Shown here: one piece after another, positions 24,708 through 37,560 of the stretch
Layout of the letters: each line of letters starts with the position of its first letter
How positions within the stretch are numbered: position 1 is the first letter of the stretch
Assembly: GCA_016214745.1 (NCBI GenBank)
Contig: JACRNW010000011.1
Span: 1 to 46,145 of the forward strand
DNA from: Candidatus Falkowiibacteriota bacterium
GTDB lineage: Bacteria; Patescibacteriota; Patescibacteriia; XYB2-FULL-38-15
DNA: 46,145 nucleotides
Direction of reading: 5' to 3'
Made by a program: the position numbers and the translations under genes
Notes under the pieces: model-generated
Databases searched by the model: none
What the model saw: the letters and a program-made list of their open reading frames with translations, nothing else
What the model was told of the DNA's origin: nothing

Positions 24708-24737
24708 TTGACAAAATAGAGAAAAACTCTTTAAGTA
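24708..24737 (+). promoter_or_regulatory. promoter of the LysM/coiled-coil cassette
   Basis: TTGACA (24708-24713) with TAAGTA (24732-24737) at 18-base spacing. The -35 is perfect, the -10 weak. Confidence 0.6.
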
Positions 24738-24753
24738 TATGGAGGCTTACCCA

Positions 24754-24822
24754 ATGGCGGGCGGGCTTTGTTCTTTTGAAATTCAACTTCTTGGCCAATT
24801 AGGCCAAGGGAGGGAGCTATGA
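24754..24822 (+). CDS. 22-codon leader ORF overlapping the LysM gene start
   Basis: ATG at 24754 lies 8 bases after GGAGG (24741-24745) and encodes MAGGLCSFEIQLLGQLGQGR plus EL. Its TGA overlaps the ATG of the next gene (ATGA, 24819-24822). The second half of the leader holds a hairpin TTGGCC-AATTA-GGCCAA just before the downstream ribosome site (GGGAGGGAG). This is the layout of a translationally coupled leader peptide; whether the peptide has its own role is unknown. Confidence 0.6.
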   Translation: MAGGLCSFEIQLLGQLGQGREL

Positions 24823-26942
24823 AGAAAGTAAGCGTTCTTTTCGTTCTGGTGTTCGGAGTTTTGTGGGCTTCGTCGGCTTCGGCCGAAAGCCAGACTTATA
24901 CTGTCCAACGCGGCGACCGGCCGGAACGTGTGGCAGCGCAGTTTGGCTTGACCGAGGAAGAGCTTCTCGCGGCCAATCCGCGTTCTTCCTACGGCATGGC
25001 TTGTGACAATCCGTTCAGGATCACACTGCGAAACCGTGAAAGCCAGGCAATCTGCGGCCAGCGGAGGCCCTACCTTATCGTCGGCAAGACGCTCGTCATT
25101 CCCGTGTCTTCGCTGGTGCTTGAGACCGAGAACGCCGAGCTCGGCGACGAAATGGCGGCGCTACGGGCCGAGATGGAAGAGATGCGGCGGGAACGCGAGA
25201 CGGAGAAGTCCGAACTCGCCGAACTGCGGCAGGAGCGCGACAATCTTCGCGACGAGAACAAGACTCTCGTTGCCGCCAAGGCCGAGCTTCAGGGCAAGTA
25301 CAGCGAGTCTCAATCGGACTTCGTAGTGGTGTCTTCCCGGCAGCCGAAGCAGGTTGAAGTCCAAGGGACGAACTACGTCCACATTGCTTTGGCAATCGCT
25401 AGTACGGCTTTCTTGGCCGTCCTCGTGATCATCGTCATCAAGTACCGGAAGGGTAAGAACGAGAAGAAGTTCGATCATCTCGTCCAGTTTGTCCAGCCGA
25501 GCGTCTTGGAGCAAGCCGAGAAGAACAAGCGGCGTGGCGCGGAGTTGGACAAGCAGGCGAAGGAGCTCGAGAGGCAGGCGAGGGAGCAGAACGAGCTGCA
25601 GGCCCGACTGCAAGAGCAGAAGAGCGAACAGGAACGCCGGAACAAGGAGCTTGAAGAACGCGACGCTGGTTTGCGTCGAACTGCAGAGGAGTCGGATCGG
25701 TGTAGCCAGGAATTGCGGGAAAAGAATCGCGAATTGAATGGTCGCGAGGCGAAGCTTTACCTGGACAGGGAAACTCTCGCTACTGGCGAGAGGGTGCTAC
25801 ATCAAGATCGTGGAGCTTTGGCAAGGAGTTGGGAAGAGTATCGCAGAAAAGAACGCGGCTTGGCGGTAAAACAAGCCGAAGTTGAAGCGATGTTGCGGAC
25901 CGCGGAGGAAGACATCCCCAAGCTCGAAAAAGAGAAGGGGGAAGTTACTCAGCGCGTTGATGCGGTCAAGGTTCGCGAGATTGACGCGGCGCGCCGCGAG
26001 GGAGAAGCGACCGCCCGAGAAGAGGCGGCGAAGCAGCGGGAAGACGCGGCCGCGCGGCGGGAAGTAGAAGCGGGGCGTAGGGAAGCCACTGCGTCTGATC
26101 AGGAAAGACTCCTTGCCCAGCGCGATAAGGATGCTGCGGCGAGAGAGGAAGGACTGCATCAGGGAGAAGCCGATCTTAGAACCGCGCAGGGCGATTTCGC
26201 GCAAGAGATGAGTGAGCAGCGCGCCGCCTTTGAACGAGAAAAGGGCGAGGCGCGCAGTTTGCTCGCGAGAGCCAAGCGCAAAGCGGAAATCGTTCGCGTC
26301 CTGGATGAACGTGCAGCGAAGAATGAGGCGGACGCAAAGGCGAATGCCGCCGAGGCTCGTCGACTTGAAACCATGAGGGGTAACCTTCAGGGTTGGGAAG
26401 AACGTCTGACTGATCGAGAACGTCAGCAATCCGGCGGGGAAGATGGACCCACAGCGGTTTTGCCATCACTGCCGGGAGGTGAAGTTGATCCGAGCGGCAA
26501 TACGCACGTTGACGCGCCGGGTTCAGAACCGTCGGCTCCAGCTGACATTTGCATGAGCATCTGCGACGTGTGCGGCAGAGAAATGCCGCTCGACGAACTC
26601 GAAGATCATCGGGTCTCGATGCACGGGGTCGTCTGTGGGGCTTGCGGCCGGAAGTTCCCTGACCGTGGCAAGTTTGATGAGCATCGGCCGGAGTGTCCCA
26701 AGGCCGTGCCTCACGTACGGACCCTTGTCGGGGTTTCAGCGGCGGCTGGGGGGCGGGCATCGGCTGCAGCGCCTCCTCCTGAATCGCCAACGAGCGGGAC
26801 TGGAGGGAGTTCGTCAGCTTCGTGCGGACCCAGTACGATTTACTGCAAGGTTTGCAAGGCTGTTTTTTCCCCTGACGTGTACGCGGCAGAACACGCGGAG
26901 CACGACCAGGGACTGGCTTCGGGGGATTCGGACAAGAAGTAG
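24819..26942 (+). CDS. LysM, single-TM, coiled-coil and zinc-finger envelope protein
   Basis: 707 aa. Signal-like helix 1-22 (LFVLVFGVLWASSASA); LysM-like domain about 26-95 (YTVQRGDRPERVAAQFGLTE); short coiled coil 103-160; one strong TM helix 187-208 (HIALAIASTAFLAVLVIIVI); then about 330 residues of Glu/Arg/Ala-rich coiled coil (220-550), a Pro/Gly/Ser linker, and three zinc-finger-like units near the end (CDVCGREMPLDELEDHRVSMH; CGACGRKFPDRGKFDEHRPE; C676-x2-C679 with HAEH). Predicted topology: LysM outside on peptidoglycan, coiled coil and fingers in the cytoplasm. It is GC-rich, with a full Shine-Dalgarno, its own promoter and terminator, and codon use unlike its neighbours. No known family has this order of parts to my knowledge. 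Confidence 0.75.
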   Translation: MKKVSVLFVLVFGVLWASSASAESQTYTVQRGDRPERVAAQFGLTEEELLAANPRSSYGMACDNPFRITLRNRESQAICGQRRPYLIVGKTLVIPVSSLVLETENAELGDEMAALRAEMEEMRRERETEKSELAELRQERDNLRDENKTLVAAKAELQGKYSESQSDFVVVSSRQPKQVEVQGTNYVHIALAIASTAFLAVLVIIVIKYRKGKNEKKFDHLVQFVQPSVLEQAEKNKRRGAELDKQAKELERQAREQNELQARLQEQKSEQERRNKELEERDAGLRRTAEESDRCSQELREKNRELNGREAKLYLDRETLATGERVLHQDRGALARSWEEYRRKERGLAVKQAEVEAMLRTAEEDIPKLEKEKGEVTQRVDAVKVREIDAARREGEATAREEAAKQREDAAARREVEAGRREATASDQERLLAQRDKDAAAREEGLHQGEADLRTAQGDFAQEMSEQRAAFEREKGEARSLLARAKRKAEIVRVLDERAAKNEADAKANAAEARRLETMRGNLQGWEERLTDRERQQSGGEDGPTAVLPSLPGGEVDPSGNTHVDAPGSEPSAPADICMSICDVCGREMPLDELEDHRVSMHGVVCGACGRKFPDRGKFDEHRPECPKAVPHVRTLVGVSAAAGGRASAAAPPPESPTSGTGGSSSASCGPSTIYCKVCKAVFSPDVYAAEHAEHDQGLASGDSDKK

Positions 26943-26954
26943 TGGGGGGTTCCC

Positions 26955-26993
26955 GCCGGACAAGCGAGCGTATCGCAAGTCCGGCGTTTTTTT
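26955..26993 (+). terminator. terminator of the LysM cassette
   Basis: GCCGGAC (26955-26961) pairs with GTCCGGC (26979-26985) and runs into T7. Confidence 0.85.
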
Positions 26994-26999
26994 ATTTAC

Positions 27000-27027
27000 C
27001 CCCCACACCAATGCATTGGTGTGGGGG
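27000..27027. repeat. perfect 28-bp palindrome
   Basis: CCCCCACACCAATG meets its own inverse with no loop base, and a T run follows. It shares CCCCCACACC with the arms of the element at 3803-3904. It may be a second terminator or a collapsed copy of such an element. Confidence 0.65.
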
Positions 27028-27134
27028 TTTATTTTTTATAAGCCTCCATAAAATATATTGGTAAAATTAGAGACGGGTATTTTTTGTCTTCATTATTTGT
27101 GTTATACTATATTAATAACATCAACATTTCGTTT

Positions 27135-29840
27135 ATGAATATGCGAATGCGACTTTTTCTTATCTGTTTAGTTTTATTCATTTTTAGTTTGGCCGGAGGG
27201 TTGGGTTTGCGAATGGCTTTCGCCGCCTGGACCGAGCCGGGTTCTGCTCCGCCCGACGGCAATGTTCCGGCGCCGATTAATGTCGGCGCGGGCGCGCAGA
27301 TAAAAACCGGTGATTTGACTGTCGGCGGAAATTTTTTAGTGGGCCAGGGCCAAGTGATTGGCGTGCCAGCCGGCGGCAATATGGGTTCAGGAACTCTGAA
27401 CACTGAAAAACTTTGCATTCAAGGAAATTGCCGCGTCAATTGGCCCGAGGCAGTGAACGCTTTTGTTGATGAAGGTAATGTTGGTTTTGGGCCAACCGCG
27501 GTTTTGGGAACAAATGATGCTACGCCATTGGTTTTTGAAACGAGTGATTTTGAAAAAATGAGGATTGACACATCCGGCAACATTGGGATTGGGACAACAA
27601 ACACAGTTTATAAAATGATGGTCGCGGGGGTGGCGCCGAGAATTTATTTTTTGCCAGCGCCCGGCAGCAATCCGGAATTGGATTTTGGCAGTCCGGCCAT
27701 AGATACTCATTGGGCGATTTATCGCGATATGGCGACCGACCAACTTCGTTTTTGGAGAGCTGGGGCAGGAGAAACAAATAGGATGGTAATAAAAAGCGAT
27801 GGAAATGTCGGGGTTGGCACAACTAACCCGGTTTATAAATTTGACGTAGCCGGGCAAATTAACGCGAATACAAATTTAACGCCGGCAATCCAAGGAATAA
27901 GTTCGGCCAACGACGGGCAGGGCGTTTATGGCGCGGCGACAAACGCGGCTGGATCTAATTATGGAGGTTATTTTGAATCAGCCGGTGATTCAGGTGTTGG
28001 GGTTTATGGTCTGTCTTCAAATGCGGCGGGTTCGGGCGCGGGAGGTTTCTTCCAGTCTGACGGCACGGGGGGCGTTGGAGCTTATGGCTTGACCTCTGGT
28101 CAGGGAGGTACCGGACTTTATGGATTAGCGAACGGGGAGAGCGGCGTAGCCGTGTCTGGCGCAGCGACGTCGTTAGCCGGAAGCAATAAGGGAGGCAGCT
28201 TTTTTGCCGGCAATCCCACGGTTGTTACCTCGGGTGATAACAATATTGGAATTATGGCGGCGGGCGGGGGTTCGGCGGGAAAAAATTACGGAGGTTATTT
28301 TAAGGCGCAAGGTGCTGGTTATGGAGTGTATAGCACTGTAACCGATGCTGGCGCCTGGTCTGGATATTTTACGGGCGGGCAAGGCCTTTACGCGGACGCT
28401 GGGGTGGTGGGTGCGGCGACGGGCGGCAATAAAGGAACGGGGACTCTGAACGCCGTTAAACTTTGCATTCAGGGAAATTGTCTTGATGTGTGGCCGAGCG
28501 GAACAACGCCGAGCGGCGTCAACGGACAAATTCAATTTAATGACGGCGGAGTTTTTGGAGGCGACGCCGGGCTCTCTTATGACAAAGCTGCGGACGTTTT
28601 AACGATTGGCGGTAATTTGAAGATAGGCATGGCTGCTCCTGGAAACGATGATTTTCTTTATTTTGATGACGGTTCAAAATATATAAGATGGGCAGATGCT
28701 CAAGCAATGTTTAATTTTAGTAACGGTATTTTAAGTGACGATTTTCTTTCCGGCACACAAATCACGGCGCGAAGCGGGGGATATAATCAAGCCGTGGACG
28801 CGTCAAATACAAAATCTATCAACCTCCGGCACATGGGAACTTACGGGCTTTTATCAACCGAATCGGCAAACCCCGGCGTAGATGCCGGTAATTTGACTTT
28901 AAAGGCAGACCCTGATTATCCGGCTAATTATGTTGAAATTGCGGATGAATTAAAAGTTAATAGCACTCTGACTGTCGTTGGTAACGCAACAGTTTTGGGT
29001 AAAAATATTTGTTTGCAGGATGGAACAAATTGTCCGGTAAGCGGCGGAACATACGTGCAGCTGCAGGCCGCGACTCCGGGCACGCAGCAAGTTGGCCATT
29101 TAAATATTTCCGGCACGGGTATTTTTGGCGGTTTGCAGATTGGCGCCCTAAACGGCGTGTTAAAATCTGCGGGCGGAATAGTCTCCGGCGGAGCAACAAC
29201 GACCGATTTATCCGAAGGCGCGAATTTGTATTACACTGACGCGCGAACCAGAGCCGCAATTTCAGCAGCCGCGGGGCCGGTCAATTACGTTCCGGCAACA
29301 GGCGTGATTAGTTTTTCTTCGCCTCTCGCCCCTCTATACGGCGGTACGGGCAGTACGGATACGCCAGCAGCCGGAGGAGTCGCGTATGGCACTGGAGCAA
29401 AATATTCTTTTACCACGGCTGGAGTGGCCGGACAATTTTTAAAAAGCCAAGGAGCGGGCGCTCCGACCTGGGCAGATATTACAGCCGGGGTCGGCGGAAG
29501 CGGAACAGCGAATTATTTGGCAAAATTTACCGCCGGCACGACGCTCGGAAATTCTCAGATTTCGGATAACGGAACTAATGTCACGATCGGCGGGACTAAT
29601 GTTACTGTTTCGGGAAATCTTGGTATCGGTTGGTCTCCAATTTATAAACTTGATGTTAATGGAAATAGTTATCTTGGCGGCGCCGTCACCATTACGGGCG
29701 ACATAGTAGCCGGTAACAATGTGCCATCGGGTTGCGCTTGGACCGCTTATGCCGCTTCGGTTTCTTGTCCGGCCGGTCAGTTTGTTACGGGCGTCCGATA
29801 CAGCGCCAGCACGCTTTCCGCTTATTGCTGCGAACTATAA
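27135..29840 (+). CDS. large secreted tail-fibre-like surface protein
   Basis: 901 aa from the ATG at 27135; an in-frame earlier start would lie upstream of a TATACT box (27103-27108) and is rejected. A signal peptide (RLFLICLVLFIFSLAGGLGLRMAFA) is followed by WTEPGSAPPDGNVPAPINVG, a common opening of Patescibacterial surface proteins. Then come repeated modules: TGDLTVGGNF, GTLNTEKLCIQGNC and its later copy GTLNAVKLCIQGNC, glycine-rich YGGYFESAGDSGVGVYG-type repeats (about 255-410), and phage-tail-fibre-like strings LSEGANLYYTDARTRAAISA and PLYGGTGSTDTPAAGGVAYG. The end CPAGQFVTGVRYSA...YCCEL is a small cysteine-containing cap. Probably a trimeric fibre for attachment to host or surface; that is inference. 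cysS begins 9 bases later. Confidence 0.8.
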   Translation: MNMRMRLFLICLVLFIFSLAGGLGLRMAFAAWTEPGSAPPDGNVPAPINVGAGAQIKTGDLTVGGNFLVGQGQVIGVPAGGNMGSGTLNTEKLCIQGNCRVNWPEAVNAFVDEGNVGFGPTAVLGTNDATPLVFETSDFEKMRIDTSGNIGIGTTNTVYKMMVAGVAPRIYFLPAPGSNPELDFGSPAIDTHWAIYRDMATDQLRFWRAGAGETNRMVIKSDGNVGVGTTNPVYKFDVAGQINANTNLTPAIQGISSANDGQGVYGAATNAAGSNYGGYFESAGDSGVGVYGLSSNAAGSGAGGFFQSDGTGGVGAYGLTSGQGGTGLYGLANGESGVAVSGAATSLAGSNKGGSFFAGNPTVVTSGDNNIGIMAAGGGSAGKNYGGYFKAQGAGYGVYSTVTDAGAWSGYFTGGQGLYADAGVVGAATGGNKGTGTLNAVKLCIQGNCLDVWPSGTTPSGVNGQIQFNDGGVFGGDAGLSYDKAADVLTIGGNLKIGMAAPGNDDFLYFDDGSKYIRWADAQAMFNFSNGILSDDFLSGTQITARSGGYNQAVDASNTKSINLRHMGTYGLLSTESANPGVDAGNLTLKADPDYPANYVEIADELKVNSTLTVVGNATVLGKNICLQDGTNCPVSGGTYVQLQAATPGTQQVGHLNISGTGIFGGLQIGALNGVLKSAGGIVSGGATTTDLSEGANLYYTDARTRAAISAAAGPVNYVPATGVISFSSPLAPLYGGTGSTDTPAAGGVAYGTGAKYSFTTAGVAGQFLKSQGAGAPTWADITAGVGGSGTANYLAKFTAGTTLGNSQISDNGTNVTIGGTNVTVSGNLGIGWSPIYKLDVNGNSYLGGAVTITGDIVAGNNVPSGCAWTAYAASVSCPAGQFVTGVRYSASTLSAYCCEL

Positions 29841-36454: not shown

Positions 36455-36545
36455 TTCCCCTCTTAAGATAAGAGGGGATTAAGGGGAGTCATAAACTTGA
36501 AAAAACAATCTGGAGTCCACCCTTTAGGGTGAGACAGTCTCTGGC
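36455..36545. repeat. repeat fragments upstream of the GC-rich cassette
   Basis: 36455-36495 carries CCCCTCTTAAGATAAGAGGG and AAGGGGAGTCATAA, an inverted piece of the long repeat family at 18391/37353. 36520-36545 has CACCCTTTAGGGTG and CTGGCTAAAGCCAG, like the small hairpins in the hrcA leader and near 14481. Confidence 0.6.
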
Positions 36546-36574
36546 TAAAGCCAGGACTCCGTTGTTAGGGTTGC

Positions 36575-36603
36575 TTGACATTTCGGTGAAATTATTTTAT
36601 ACT
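36575..36603 (+). promoter_or_regulatory. consensus promoter of a GC-rich cassette
   Basis: TTGACA (36575-36580), a 17-base spacer and TATACT (36598-36603). A 120-base leader follows, opening with the hairpin GGCTGGAAA-CGG-TTTCTGGCC. Confidence 0.85.
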
Positions 36604-36728
36604 ACAATGTTGGCTGGAAACGGTTTCTGGCCACGACAAACCGCGCCCATCCGGTTCGGTGGGTATAGACGGCACCCAATGATCCGACAGAAGTCGTGGT
36701 CCTCTTGGAATGCCAAAGGAGGAATGCC

Positions 36729-37262
36729 ATGGCAAAGGTGTCTCAGAGACAGGACAAGACCCAGCGAAGGATCATTGGTCGCCGGAGAATTCTCCGCGAC
36801 ATCGTGGAGGCTCTCAATACCGGCAGAGTGACAGAAGAGCAGCTTCGTAGAGCGCTATTCCAGTCACTCCTCGCCGCCTGCCAGCAGAACTTGGTCAAAC
36901 CCGACTTCAACGGAGAGCACTATCCTCTAGAGCCTGTGACGCTCGACGAGCACGAGTGGGAAGTTGCGGAGTACCATTTCAAGGACGTGATCTCAGATGA
37001 GCGGGCCTTTGCCAAACTTAAGGCAATGGGCTACCGGCTATGCGGCGTGCGCCGGGCCATGGAGTTCATCGCGGTTCATCCCGACCTCCAGCTCGACCAT
37101 CCTCTCGTGGTCACCGCCCGTTGGCAGAGCTCGGACGACCACCGGTATGTACCGATCTTCCACCGGGCTCGCGAAGTTGGGCGCTACCTCTATCTGGACC
37201 GCCTTCCGCGTGACTTCGACCCGAACTTCGGGTGGCTCCTCCTAAGGAAGCGCGTCGCCTAG
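36729..37262 (+). CDS. orphan protein of a GC-rich cassette (177 aa)
   Basis: The ATG at 36729 is chosen because GGAGGAATGCC places a full Shine-Dalgarno at the right distance. The protein is soluble. A basic, helical N-terminus (SQRQDKTQRRIIGRRRILRD, then IVEALNTGRVTEEQLRRALF) is followed by a mixed domain (LDEHEWEVAEYHFKDVISD; LKAMGYRLCGVRRAMEFIAV; LDHPLVVTARW) and a Trp/Arg-rich end (LPRDFDPNFGWLLLRKRVA). Composition and length look like a real protein, but I recognise no family. GC content, codon use and ribosome site differ sharply from the neighbours, and it has its own promoter and terminator. Proteins of this kind occur as orphans in Patescibacterial genomes. Confidence 0.75.
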   Translation: MAKVSQRQDKTQRRIIGRRRILRDIVEALNTGRVTEEQLRRALFQSLLAACQQNLVKPDFNGEHYPLEPVTLDEHEWEVAEYHFKDVISDERAFAKLKAMGYRLCGVRRAMEFIAVHPDLQLDHPLVVTARWQSSDDHRYVPIFHRAREVGRYLYLDRLPRDFDPNFGWLLLRKRVA

Positions 37263-37304
37263 CAGCGGACAGGATGATTCCCGCCTAATTGGCGGACAAG
37301 CTTT

Positions 37305-37351
37305 GACCCTCGGATTTTGTGCTTCGGCATAAAGTTCGGGGGTCGTTTTTA
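37305..37351 (+). terminator. terminator of the 36729 cassette
   Basis: GACCCTCG (37305-37312) pairs with CGGGGGTC (37337-37344) around an inner GTGC-TTCG-GCAT hairpin, then T5. Confidence 0.8.
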
Positions 37352-37352
37352 T

Positions 37353-37560
37353 TTCTCCCCTTAAGGTAAGGGGAGATCAAGAGGGGTTATGAGCGGTGGA
37401 TTTAGTGGCACGGTTCATAACGCCCCCGCCCGCCACGCAAGCCAGCCCCGCCTGCAACGCTATGCTTGCATTAGCGGGCAGGTTGCTGGCGGCAAGTAAA
37501 ACTAGTTATGGCCTGAGCTTGTCGAAGGCCCTTCGACTTCGCTACGCTCCGCTCAGGGAA
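37353..37560. repeat. second copy of the long repeat plus the CTGAGCTTGTCGAAGG repeat
   Basis: 37353-37491 is nearly identical to 18391-18530 but lacks the right half of that repeat. It passes into 37508-37560, which carries GGCCTGAGCTTGTCGAAGG and CCTTCGACTTCGCTACGCTC and is related to 15661-15719. This fills the gap between the GC-rich cassette and dnaX; no gene is seen. Confidence 0.8.

Follow-up and report, generated by a model that had tools for sequence, protein, structure and literature searches.

What kind of protein joins a peptidoglycan-binding LysM domain, a single membrane span, a long helical rod and a series of zinc-finger-like units in one chain, and what might such a protein do in a member of the Patescibacteria? 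The question is raised by a gene of Candidatus Falkowiibacteriota bacterium (assembly GCA_016214745.1, contig JACRNW010000011.1), located in the stretch of 46,145 nucleotides that was analysed as a whole and is referred to below as the window. The gene, on the + strand at positions 24819..26942, encodes a protein of 707 amino acids in which a signal peptide, a LysM domain, an ectodomain helix, a transmembrane (TM) helix, a cytoplasmic helical rod and a zinc-finger-like tail follow one another, as supported by the list of open reading frames (ORFs), an ortholog and a distant homolog. An earlier note on this DNA had described one GC-rich gene with the order LysM, TM helix, rod and fingers, and the ORF, its coordinates and its domain order all proved to be as claimed. 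The GC content of the ORF is 59.5% and its GC3 is 0.64, compared with a mean GC3 of 0.44 for the 22 other genes of the window, and the surrounding region has mostly 40-50% GC. An assembly artefact was rejected, because the gene is found at the same place in an independent genome. A further stretch of raised GC (56%) lies at 36500-37500 around a 188-aa ORF.

Upstream of the gene, a candidate promoter (24708..24739, + strand), consisting of TTGACA, a 17-nt spacer and TTAAGTATA, was read directly from the sequence and is kept in the alignment with the ortholog from the same genus; it is not among the hits of a consensus scan. On the 3' side of the stop codon, two hairpins with T-runs (26954..27027, + strand), both kept in the same-genus genome, are candidate terminators. 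The gene is also flanked by a 12-bp inverted repeat, TATGGAGGCTTA (24738-24749 and 27039-27050), which has no other exact copy in the genome. A mobile element with terminal repeats was considered and rejected, because this repeat is not kept in the ortholog and is thus due to chance or decayed.

The outer half of the protein begins with a Sec-type signal peptide (residues 1-22; 24819..24884, + strand), recognized by hydropathy and by an A-x-A cleavage motif (A-S-A here); the hydrophobic core and the A-x-A site are present in all three homologs identified. It is followed by the LysM domain (about residues 25-95; 24891..25103, + strand), assigned by profile PF01476, AlphaFold, Foldseek and alignment. 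PF01476 scores 23.3 bits with the whole protein and 28.0 bits with the N-terminal piece, in both cases above the Pfam cut-off of 20.9, with the domain starting at residue 27, so that the LysM end proposed in the earlier note is borne out by a profile search. The match ends at position 33 of the 43 profile positions, because about 25 extra residues, among them C62 and C79, come before the closing stretch YLIVGKTLVIP. In the AlphaFold model, which was built from three sequences, the domain has a pLDDT of 83.6 and the insert forms four strands, and Foldseek matches the domain to LysM chains with a probability of 1.00 and a best E-value of 0.035. Both cysteines of the insert are kept in the alignment of all three homologs, and they may form a C62-C79 disulphide. 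An ectodomain helix (residues 98-173; 25110..25337, + strand), partly heptad by heptad analysis and also present in the AlphaFold model, leads to the membrane, which is crossed by a single TM helix (residues about 184-211; 25368..25451, + strand; model helix 187-210). This helix, likewise proposed before, is predicted by one hydropathy peak (KD 2.99 at about 184-211), and the basic patch KYRKGKNEKK comes directly after it. By rule, the signal peptide, the TM helix and the basic patch together predict an N-out/C-in topology.

The region that would then lie inside the cell includes a helical rod (residues 225-533; 25491..26417, + strand), delimited by charge and heptad analysis and by AlphaFold and interrupted at an EDIP motif (364-367) that reads EDVP in the same-genus ortholog, so that EDxP is kept. 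The AlphaFold prediction, made for the monomer with a three-sequence alignment, places helices at 225-362 and 366-533, 306 residues in total. The rod is neutral in charge (76 K or R and 76 D or E) and contains 50 attractive i,i+4 charge pairs (34.6+/-4.7 in shuffled sequences) and 13 repulsive ones (33.7+/-4.8 in shuffled sequences), the pattern that a stable charged helix should show. The heptad signal is patchy, with 36% of 42-residue windows at P<0.05 and none at about 369-450, a region that bears a closer resemblance to a charged single alpha-helix. Of the coiled coil of about 330 residues suggested earlier, a long helical rod of about 310 residues stands, but heptads account for only part of it, and the most fitting description is a mixture of coiled coil and charged helix. 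With 0.15 nm per residue, its fully extended length would be about 45 nm.

This arrangement could be read as that of a cell-wall sensor, in which the LysM domain with its cysteine insert recognizes fragments of the wall or of foreign glycans, and the rod and fingers relay this state to a partner in the cytoplasm, in the manner of LysM receptors. The topology is that of a type-I receptor, a plain anchor would not require an insert as elaborate as this one with its two conserved cysteines, and there is a weak likeness to the LysM of plant LYK proteins, below the cut-off (PF23473, 19.9 bits against 29.3). However, Pfam and NCBIfam searches revealed no output domain such as a kinase or cyclase, and a rod of such length is odd for this role; we regard the sensor reading as unlikely.

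The last 130 residues of the protein contain three C-x2-C-x11/12-H-x2-4-[HC] motifs: finger 1 (C582-x2-C585-x11-H597-x4-H602; 26562..26624, + strand), supported by motif, profile and model and degenerate in the same-genus ortholog, and finger 2 (C606-x2-C609-x12-H622-x3-C626; 26634..26696, + strand) and finger 3 (C676-x2-C679-x12-H692-x2-H695; 26844..26903, + strand), both supported by motif and model and kept in that ortholog. None of 5000 shuffles of the whole protein, and none of 5000 shuffles of its last 170 residues, had as many such motifs. Cys2-His/Cys2 ligands at finger spacing thus occur in units that are modelled, at low confidence (AlphaFold pLDDT about 50-68), with the beta-beta-alpha fold of C2H2-type fingers. 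In Pfam, no single finger exceeds its cut-off, the best matches being zf_UBZ (24.7 against 25.6) and zf-C2H2_4 (20.3 against 27). The three zinc-finger-like units of the earlier note therefore remain below threshold by profile, but they are upheld by ligand conservation, by the chance tests and by the predicted fold. A profile of the tail matched no other protein of the class.

The same note had suggested a tether from the wall to a cytoplasmic or nucleoid structure; in the nucleoid version, the fingers would hold the chromosome to the envelope by binding DNA. The C2H2-like spacing of the ligands is compatible with such a wall-to-nucleoid tether, and the Foldseek matches include DNA-binding C2H2 fingers, with weak E-values. 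Against it stands the charge of the fingers and tail, which is mostly neutral or acidic: the net charges of fingers 1, 2 and 3 are -4, +2 and -2, and that of the tail is -10 (14 K or R, 24 D or E). The ortholog lacks an intact finger 1, and no Ros/MucR family appeared among Pfam or NCBIfam matches up to an E-value of 1. Ros/MucR and other bacterial C2H2-type proteins have Cys2His2-like ligands in common with the tail, but they are small soluble DNA-binding proteins, whereas this tail is not basic and matches none of their families. The nucleoid idea is not supported, being weakened by the acidic charge of finger 1, of finger 3 and of the whole tail, and we consider it very unlikely.

Comparative genomics identified two relatives. 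The same-genus genome (contig JAHIRI010000069.1, Patescibacteria group bacterium isolate MM_PC_MetaG.mb.12; G001 below) encodes an ortholog (L011:462-2585), also of 707 aa and with 46% identity, in a syntenic position 5' of the same surface-protein gene and cysS. Identity is 57% from the LysM domain to the juxtamembrane stretch and 40% over the tail, in which fingers 2 and 3 retain every ligand whereas finger 1 does not. When a profile of the two orthologs was used to search 380 genomes of the class, one further true relative was found, in a genome of another order (G056). This homolog, of 872 aa counted from the first ATG, is 29% identical over 250 aa (E 2e-12) and has a variable rod, yet its parts come in the same order: a signal peptide, a LysM domain with the two cysteines, a coil, a TM helix, a long rod and three C-terminal Cys/His knuckles, one with strict and two with looser spacing. 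The order of parts sought in other genomes is thus common to three homologs, and roughly 720 genomes of the class or phylum yielded no homolog of this architecture beyond these two relatives. The remaining significant matches, from class and phylum alike, cover almost only the LysM core, with a few exceptions that are coil-only. Of those inspected individually, two LysM hits whose ending is of the M23 type appear to be ordinary peptidases, a LysM ORF in G231 belongs to a different protein, and the match in G361 is a non-LysM protein. A scan of the genome collection with the 707-aa protein alone found nothing, and a scan with the alignment profile recovered the same-genus ortholog and generic LysM proteins. 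In the collection of papers searched, nothing related was found on LysM together with zinc fingers in Patescibacteria. A 388-aa protein encoded at L002:478-1644 (G000:C11) has a signal peptide, an ectodomain, a TM helix and a basic patch followed by a C-terminal LysM domain, which is predicted by rule to be on the cytoplasmic side.

The LysM gene and the gene of a neighboring 900-aa secreted or surface-type protein without a Pfam family (27138..29840, + strand) form an island of two genes flanked by dnaJ and cysS. The sister genus (G002) has neither island gene, cysS there coming directly after dnaJ. The G001 ortholog of the surface protein has 702 aa and a different C-terminus. Missing from the sister genus and from almost the entire class, the LysM gene does not encode a core part of the envelope. 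Its codon usage is also far from that of the host: lysine is encoded by AAG at 36 of 41 positions (113 of 558 in the host; Fisher P 1.3e-18), phenylalanine by TTC at 8 of 13 (35 of 266 in the host) and leucine by TTA at 0 of 55 (24% in the host). The G001 ortholog has the same bias (AAG 32/37, TTA 0%), and only 40% of fourfold sites are identical between the two; the neighboring genes of both genomes have host codon usage. The usage typical of highly expressed genes was rejected as an explanation, since EF-Tu and DnaK lack the bias. A simple recent transfer does not explain the non-host codon usage of both diverged orthologs. In G056, a GC-rich genome, the copy of the gene resembles the genome that carries it. 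The gene may plausibly have arrived long ago from a GC-rich relative; in that case, either something has held the codon usage from drifting or the gene has been re-imported.

These features could be those of a gene that evolves fast, is specific to its lineage and belongs to a variable island; it would be linked to the neighboring surface protein, in interactions with a host cell, a partner cell or a phage, and would have no structural role in the cell body. The island itself, its absence from the sister genus, the foreign codon usage and an identity to G001 of 46%, as opposed to 73-89% for the neighbors, favor such a reading. Yet the rod and fingers are inside the cell by topology, the LysM domain, TM helix and juxtamembrane stretch are well conserved, and no phage, viral or defence-family match is of substance. 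A phage origin was rejected, as the phage records and viral contigs gave no match apart from a single LysM-only hit and the PHROG hits are weak matches to LysM or coil; a defence protein was rejected, as the PADLOC matches are coil-only and MukB-like. Kinship to SMC/Rad50 was also rejected, as the NCBIfam matches are coil-only and far under the cut-off. This reading appears improbable to us.

To the reading of the protein as a peptidoglycan-anchored, single-pass envelope scaffold that works in the manner of FimV/HubP we give about an even chance. The LysM domain with its cysteine insert would grip glycan strands outside the cell, the ectodomain helix would bridge the gap to the membrane, the rod would point inward, and the neutral-to-acidic zinc knuckles would bind a protein client. 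The wall would thereby set the position of a cytoplasmic assembly, for example at a pole, an attachment site or a division site. A tether from wall to cytoplasm, as the earlier note had proposed, is what the predicted topology implies, and the three homologs have the same order of parts. Genes for a PBP transpeptidase and a Mur ligase lie in the same window, pointing to a peptidoglycan wall that the protein can bind.

In FimV/HubP, a LysM domain combined with a TM helix and a long cytoplasmic region of low conservation constitutes a working design, and in Pseudomonas putida FimV the deletion of LysM abolishes both sacculus binding and polar anchoring (PMC12918733). The likeness to FimV/HubP/TspA extends to the signal peptide, the LysM domain outside the membrane, the one TM helix, the long, poorly conserved cytoplasmic part and a C-terminal interaction module (PMC12918733). 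Here too, LysM is placed by rule outside the inner membrane, with a single TM helix and a cytoplasmic C-terminus. However, the cytoplasmic part of FimV/HubP/TspA is acidic and largely unstructured, whereas the rod described here is helical and charge-balanced and is followed by an acidic tail; the FimV/TPR C-terminal domain is theirs, while the zinc-finger-like end and the LysM cysteine insert belong to this Patescibacterium protein. No FimV model of NCBIfam or Pfam matches up to an E-value of 1. The protein may thus work like FimV/HubP yet is not a member, because no FimV/TPR model matches.

Other known systems are more distant. MapZ/LocZ spans the membrane once, with a cytoplasmic N-terminus, and binds peptidoglycan on the outer side and a division protein on the inner side; wall binding outside by a single-pass protein is shared, but the topology is opposite and the wall-binding fold is different, and Pfam and NCBIfam searches gave no match to the MapZ family. 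The LysM-M23 peptidases of Patescibacteria, a common LysM protein of these genomes, have LysM in common with the rod protein but carry a peptidase and neither rod nor fingers, whereas no enzymatic domain was found in the 707-aa protein by Pfam and NCBIfam searches.

A broader proposal, which we advance tentatively and consider rather unlikely, is that these proteins represent an undescribed Patescibacteria family of wall-anchored organizers of cell sites, marking the attachment pole or the division site in cells of ultra-small size, in which a disulphide-bearing LysM domain and a zinc-finger tip for client binding would make up a FimV/HubP analog of independent origin. Many Patescibacteria are epibionts with very small cells and genomes, and little is known of how they place the machinery for attachment and division. 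A protein whose every part can be interpreted, from the wall binder through the membrane span and rod to the zinc-finger tip, offers a concrete handle on the structure to which the wall is attached. The protein looks like a new and rare form of the wall-anchored scaffolds with which other bacteria mark envelope sites and, if this is true, the FimV/HubP design would have been reached with quite different inner parts.
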